Virus record (IMG/VR): IMGVR_UViG_3300044641_004325
Span: 1-37,878 of that record
Source of the DNA: a virus
Reading direction: 5' to 3' (one strand)
Length of the DNA: 37,878 bases
The notes under the pieces are model-generated. The model was not told where the DNA came from, searched no databases, and saw nothing but the letters and a program-made list of their open reading frames with translations. Below are positions 11,074 to 11,118 of the stretch, one piece after another. The position numbers and the translations under genes are program-made. Positions within the stretch are counted from its first letter, which is position 1, and every line of letters starts with the position of its first letter.

Positions 11074-11118
11074 TGGTAGCGGGGGTAGGATTTGAACCTA
11101 CGACCTTCGGGTTATGAG
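11074..11118 (-). other. attP: attP core: 3' half of tRNA-Met (CAU)
   Basis: Read on the minus strand, this 45-bp segment runs from the anticodon loop CTCATAA (anticodon CAU) through the 3' anticodon stem, variable loop, a perfect T arm (GTAGG TTCAAAT CCTAC) and acceptor CCCGCTA to an encoded CCA. There is no 5' half, so it is not a phage tRNA gene. Tyrosine integrases commonly use such 3' tRNA ends, and the phage copy restores the host gene on integration. It lies 79 bp after the integrase stop. Confidence 0.88.

Follow-up and report, generated by a model that had tools for sequence, protein, structure and literature searches.

The window, that is the whole stretch of 37,878 nucleotides of virus DNA that was analysed, contains at positions 11074-11118 the 3' half of a tRNA gene. 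This segment is, with little room for doubt, the core of a lambda-type attP that recombines with the same 45 bp of the host initiator tRNA-fMet gene. The features that enter into this reading are the following:

1-85, plus strand: terminal repeat, 85 bp identical to 37794-37878
9802-10119, plus strand: helix-turn-helix protein overlapping the start of the integrase gene (HTH_17; weak matches to PHROG excisionase families)
9987-10994, plus strand: tyrosine integrase, 335 aa (PF00589, E 2e-24, 86.5 bits; phrog_1 integrase)
11007-11025, plus strand: putative P-side arm repeat TGTACACAAATTCCCCACA (direct repeat D1; fixed offset of -67 in relatives)
11057-11069, minus strand: candidate IHF site AATCAGGCACTTA between P arm and core (consensus motif match, offset -17)
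11074-11118, minus strand: very probable attP core, positions 32-76 of initiator tRNA-fMet from anticodon loop to CCA (sequence, genome matches, conservation beside the integrase gene)
11112-11118, minus strand: predicted 7-bp overlap, anticodon loop CTCATAA (from the divergence of contigs L028 and L056 after position 32)
11145-11157, minus strand: candidate IHF site AATCAGCAACTTG between core and P' arm (consensus motif match, offset +70/71)
11204-11222, plus strand: putative P'-side arm repeat TGTACACAAATTCCCCGCA (direct repeat D1; offset +130)
11224-12336, minus strand: exonuclease-like phage gene across attP from the integrase gene (phrog_7339, E 9e-40)

The reverse complement of 11074-11118 is CTCATAACCCGAAGGTCGTAGGTTCAAATCCTACCCCCGCTACCA, with the anticodon CAT. 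It runs through the anticodon loop CTCATAA, the 3' side of the anticodon stem CCCGA, the T arm GTAGG-TTCAAAT-CCTAC and the acceptor strand CCCCGCT to the terminal ACCA. Since ARAGORN detected no complete tRNA in the whole window, the core is half a gene. Identity with the tRNA ends at base 11119, which is a C at tRNA position 31 where the tRNA has G, so that the edges of the segment are exact. The initial annotation had described an attP made of the 3' half of a tRNA-Met (CAU), CCA included, next to an integrase; the sequence agrees with this, the coordinates are exact and the neighbouring PF00589 gene has its stop codon 80 bp before the core. Moreover, about 30 related virus contigs have the core next to the same integrase, conserved in spite of diverging flanks. 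Among 24 related virus records, 19 have a single copy of the core and the other 5 have none, four of the latter having distant integrases. An Rfam scan of the att region returned only matches below gathering scores. A megablast of positions 10000-20000 gave only 40-bp tRNA matches; those in two GenBank "phage" records, both unannotated and one marked UNVERIFIED, were set aside. In one related locus (L035 6996-7678; record G682, core at 7540-7584), the gap between integrase gene and core reaches about 590-680 bp and the core reads CTCGTAA, with a changed anticodon base.

The integrase model has lambda Int (1z1b) as its best structural match, and residues R197, H280, R283 and Y315 are invariant in the integrase alignment. 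Three strands and a helix are predicted in its N-terminal domain, which has no Pfam arm-binding match; a fold search with this isolated domain gave no match and is uninformative either way. The helix-turn-helix protein at 9802-10119 is, judging from its position and family matches, likely an excisionase (Xis). Beyond the core lie the exonuclease-like gene, a CHAP-domain gene and the major head protein, portal and terminase genes, with the integrase on the other side; the exonuclease-like gene thus makes both attP flanks phage DNA. Furthermore, the 85-bp terminal identity and a DNA-methyltransferase frame that spans the end-to-start join show that the genome is circular, of about 37.8 kb. An exact tRNA half, an adjoining integrase and phage genes on each flank in a circular genome together identify the segment as attP, as the initial annotation had proposed. 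The nearest portals to that of the window (31446-33620) in the phage collection are those of Myxococcus phages Mx8/Mx9 (45%) and Stenotrophomonas phage BUCT555 (37%).

Then, we searched bacterial genomes for the exact 45-mer. It was found in 22 of 274 Gammaproteobacterial genomes (about 8% of the sample), and a reversed-pattern control gave 0 matches in the same 274 genomes. Together with the conservation of the core beside the integrase gene, this places the match far outside what chance would give. Complete genes were examined for 12 fetched from genomes with the 45-mer and for one in a metagenome-assembled genome (MAG), i.e. 13 in total. All 13 bear the marks of an initiator: the anticodon arm TCGGG-CTCATAA-CCCGA, with its GGG/CCC stem, and a T or C at position 1 that faces T72 unpaired (1:72 mismatch). 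The target is therefore the initiator tRNA-fMet, and the assignment to an elongator tRNA-Met in the initial annotation was wrong, tRNA-Met (CAU) being right only in the broad sense. That the core is half of an elongator tRNA-Met or a tRNA-Ile (CAU), with such a gene as attB, is scarcely credible. The CAU anticodon is common to all three classes, and an integrase relative about 42-45% alike adjoins a non-initiator CAT tRNA (L072); however, this tRNA lacks the 45-mer, and the stem and the 1:72 mismatch mark all the complete genes with the 45-mer as initiators. The initial annotation had also seen in the 45-mer a handle for finding the host and had suggested looking for prophages beside tRNA-Met genes that end in it. 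Such a gene with a prophage remnant beside it exists in the MAG (L056), and the 45-mer points to a broad host group; shared by 22 of 274 genomes, it is too widespread to name a species. In a census of IMG/VR, many virus contigs with distantly similar integrases (L086-L189) also carry a half or full tRNA-fMet near the integrase, and the initiator tRNA therefore looks like a frequent target.

Around the core, the window displays, as far as motifs can tell, a putative lambda-like attP anatomy, each side having arm repeats and an IHF-like site at set distances from the core. The D1 direct repeats that flank the core read TGTACACAAATTCCCC(A/G)CA. The IHF consensus WATCARNNNNTTR (minus strand) occurs at -17 in the window and in 32 of the 32 related loci scanned. 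On the P' side, it occurs at +70/71 in most related loci, the strict consensus being absent in a few. Over 22 distinct sites, mean column identity drops from 0.99 for the core to 0.90 for the P-side IHF site and 0.70 for the P arm; the spacer between these last two has 0.54. The whole att site spans about 220 bp. Binding of IHF and of the integrase at these predicted sites is probable. Core and P' arm are separated by a strong hairpin (11124-11171, about -33 kcal/mol), whose own two arms show matched changes in L006, L007 and L011, and the P' IHF-like site overlaps it in the window's clade. No intrinsic terminator was found, and no T-run comes after the hairpin. A reading of the P' segment as an RNA hairpin was rejected, as the hairpin is confined to the window's clade and missing in the rest of the family.

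We also looked for integrated forms of related phages. One integrase relative was found in the genome collection, 80% identical to that of the window, on contig VGVG01000012.1 (L056) of the Gammaproteobacterial MAG. In this contig, the integrase gene is followed by a complete tRNA-fMet gene and then by what we take to be the nuo operon, with nuoN nearest. The virus contig L028 is 99.9% identical to L056 over 1,212 bp comprising integrase, arm and core. The two part exactly after tRNA position 32, beyond which L028 is phage DNA and L056 has the 5' half of the tRNA. In L028, genes that we read as phage-like lie on both sides of attP. On this sequence comparison, L028 and L056 are an attP/attL pair, and the tRNA-fMet gene is intact at the L056 attL. 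An attL is thus found in a relative at exactly the tRNA site that the initial annotation had predicted as attB. Two further genomes (L062 and L063) have this tRNA with nuoN-like genes on one side and rimP-nusA-like genes on the other. At 8740-8858 of L056, the start of a transposase gene (PF01527), presumably of IS3 type, is fused into the middle of a xis-like gene and non-phage genes follow; the element is therefore a prophage remnant. A search for attR gave nothing, either in the MAG with up to 3 mismatches tolerated or beside rimP-nusA. A search for further integrated copies covered 396 genomes from the order of the MAG and 200 from its family, and revealed no other close integrase except one fragment. 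This C-terminal fragment of a same-family integrase (L078 150-260) lies beside a degraded tRNA-fMet end that retains CCCCCGCTACCA. More distant integrase relatives in the same order and family adjoin tRNA-Phe, tRNA-Thr and a tRNA-Met gene without the 45-mer. Another contig (L021 7134 / L106 1) stops exactly at tRNA position 32, as if the assembly had been interrupted at the point of divergence between attP and attL (or attB) forms. By extension from the L028/L056 pair, the window's own phage would integrate at tRNA-fMet as well.

Could the segment instead be a captured or decaying tRNA fragment, or the attL or attR of a trimmed prophage, rather than a working attP? Mobile elements commonly hold tRNA fragments (PMC9897764), and the relative's copy in the MAG is itself a remnant. 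Nevertheless, this possibility is very remote: the window is circular with phage genes on both flanks of the core, core identity far exceeds that of the spacers, arms and IHF-like sites keep fixed offsets, and an attP/attL pair exists in the relative. A working attP is thus the reading that we retain. The divergence of L028 and L056 suggests that strand exchange occurs in the anticodon loop (11112-11118), where the cleavage positions would lie. An overlap in the anticodon loop is the usual case (PMC8371274).

The T-stem pair 50:64 varies within the core. It is T:A or C:G in the family cores, never mixed, and switched at least five times on the integrase tree, one switch separating the window from L003, whose integrase is 99% identical. 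By itself, a crossover in the anticodon loop would not exchange this pair. Its changes probably result from homologous exchange with host tRNA genes and selection for a working tRNA. From these matched changes, the copy in the phage seems to be maintained in a form fit to act as initiator tRNA of the host.

Then, we compared the arm motifs with the integrases. Relatives carry, in place of the window's motif, ACGTCCCA or ACGGCACA, and the same motif stands in both arms within one phage, L027 and L028 having a mixed second unit in P'. Phages with TGTACACA and with ACGTCCCA are separated without exception by integrase positions 13, 15, 18, 26, 27, 30, 52 and 56, and by no other position of the alignment up to 335. 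In the AlphaFold model, three strands (residues 5-9, 12-18 and 24-30) precede a helix, an arrangement known from arm-binding domains (PMC8138268). Six of the eight separating positions (13, 15, 18, 26, 27 and 30) would fall on strands 2 and 3 of this model, residue 30 at a strand edge. The catalytic domains of L028 and L056 are 94-96% identical to those of L026 and L029, which have ACGTCCCA arms; the N-terminus of L028 and L056 is nearer to that of the window and their arms are of the window's type. For the catalytic domain, the AU test rejects monophyly of the TGTACACA phages (p = 0.0004, a value weakened by the naming of the groups after the sequences were seen). On the N-terminal tree, which rests on 55 residues, the TGTACACA phages form one group (90/99). 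For the three phages with ACGGCACA, one clade is not rejected (p = 0.13), and the case for arm switching therefore rests on one well-supported switch. The arm sequence thus appears to change on both sides together and to track the N-terminal rather than the catalytic domain.

Two explanations of this pattern were weighed. We put at about even the chances that the arm-binding domain switches in concert with the two arm sites, the tRNA-fMet core and the catalytic lineage being kept, with about six residues (13, 15, 18, 26, 27 and 30) specifying TGTACACA or ACGTCCCA, and perhaps ACGGCACA. Shared ancestry alone, with no recognition behind the link between arm motif and N-terminal residues, is rather unlikely. 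The phages are related, independent switches are few, and both the short N-terminal alignment and the ACGGCACA result speak for it. On the other hand, the TGTACACA phages are split on the catalytic domain and grouped on the N-terminal one, all eight separating residues lie within 13-56, and both arms bear the same motif. If the arm-binding domain and the arms do switch together, relatives at the same attB would differ in arm recognition.

These elements suggest how integration would proceed. The N-terminal domain of the integrase would bind the arm repeats that flank the core, and host IHF would probably bend the DNA at the two IHF-like sites. The catalytic domains would then carry out recombination between the core and its identical 45-bp counterpart in the host initiator tRNA-fMet gene, strand exchange taking place in the anticodon loop. 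Because the phage carries the last 45 bases of the gene, insertion is possible without breaking it. Upon integration, the phage would supply tRNA positions 32-76 and the essential initiator tRNA gene would be restored at attL.

Such an attP at a tRNA site is textbook for temperate phages and ordinary in kind. As in lambda, a probably heterobivalent tyrosine integrase is associated with a core between IHF-like and putative arm sites; unlike in lambda, the core is a tRNA half and each side has two arms, directly oriented and symmetrically spaced. Sequence identity to lambda Int is only about 19%. The metV gene encodes initiator tRNA. The metV islands of Escherichia coli (PAI-metV), named for this tRNA gene (PMC2907695), are different elements, likened here by their tRNA gene. 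The att site is about 220 bp here versus 240 bp in lambda (PMC4880445). Anticodon-centred tRNA islands and prophages (Williams 2002; Islander class A), of which 2083 are in Islander (PMC4383910), likewise have a 3' tRNA fragment in attP that restores the gene and a crossover inferred in the anticodon loop; there is no difference in principle, the target here being the initiator tRNA. In the literature searched, Williams 2002 lying outside it, no explicit report of phage integration at tRNA-fMet was found, which does not imply that there is none. In Cluster K mycobacteriophages, the arm sites of close relatives vary with N-terminal integrase residues 17 and 19, a smaller precedent for the co-variation described here (PMC3203893). 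There the target is tmRNA and the differences are of one or two bases, whereas here whole arm motifs vary over a constant tRNA-fMet core.

The analysis fixes where this uncultured phage family is predicted to integrate and narrows its hosts to bacteria with this initiator tRNA allele, one Gammaproteobacterial lysogen remnant serving as host anchor for the family. The useful part is the attP/attL pair and the natural series of related integrases with differing arm motifs and a constant core, in which the residues of arm recognition may be read and are open to testing.
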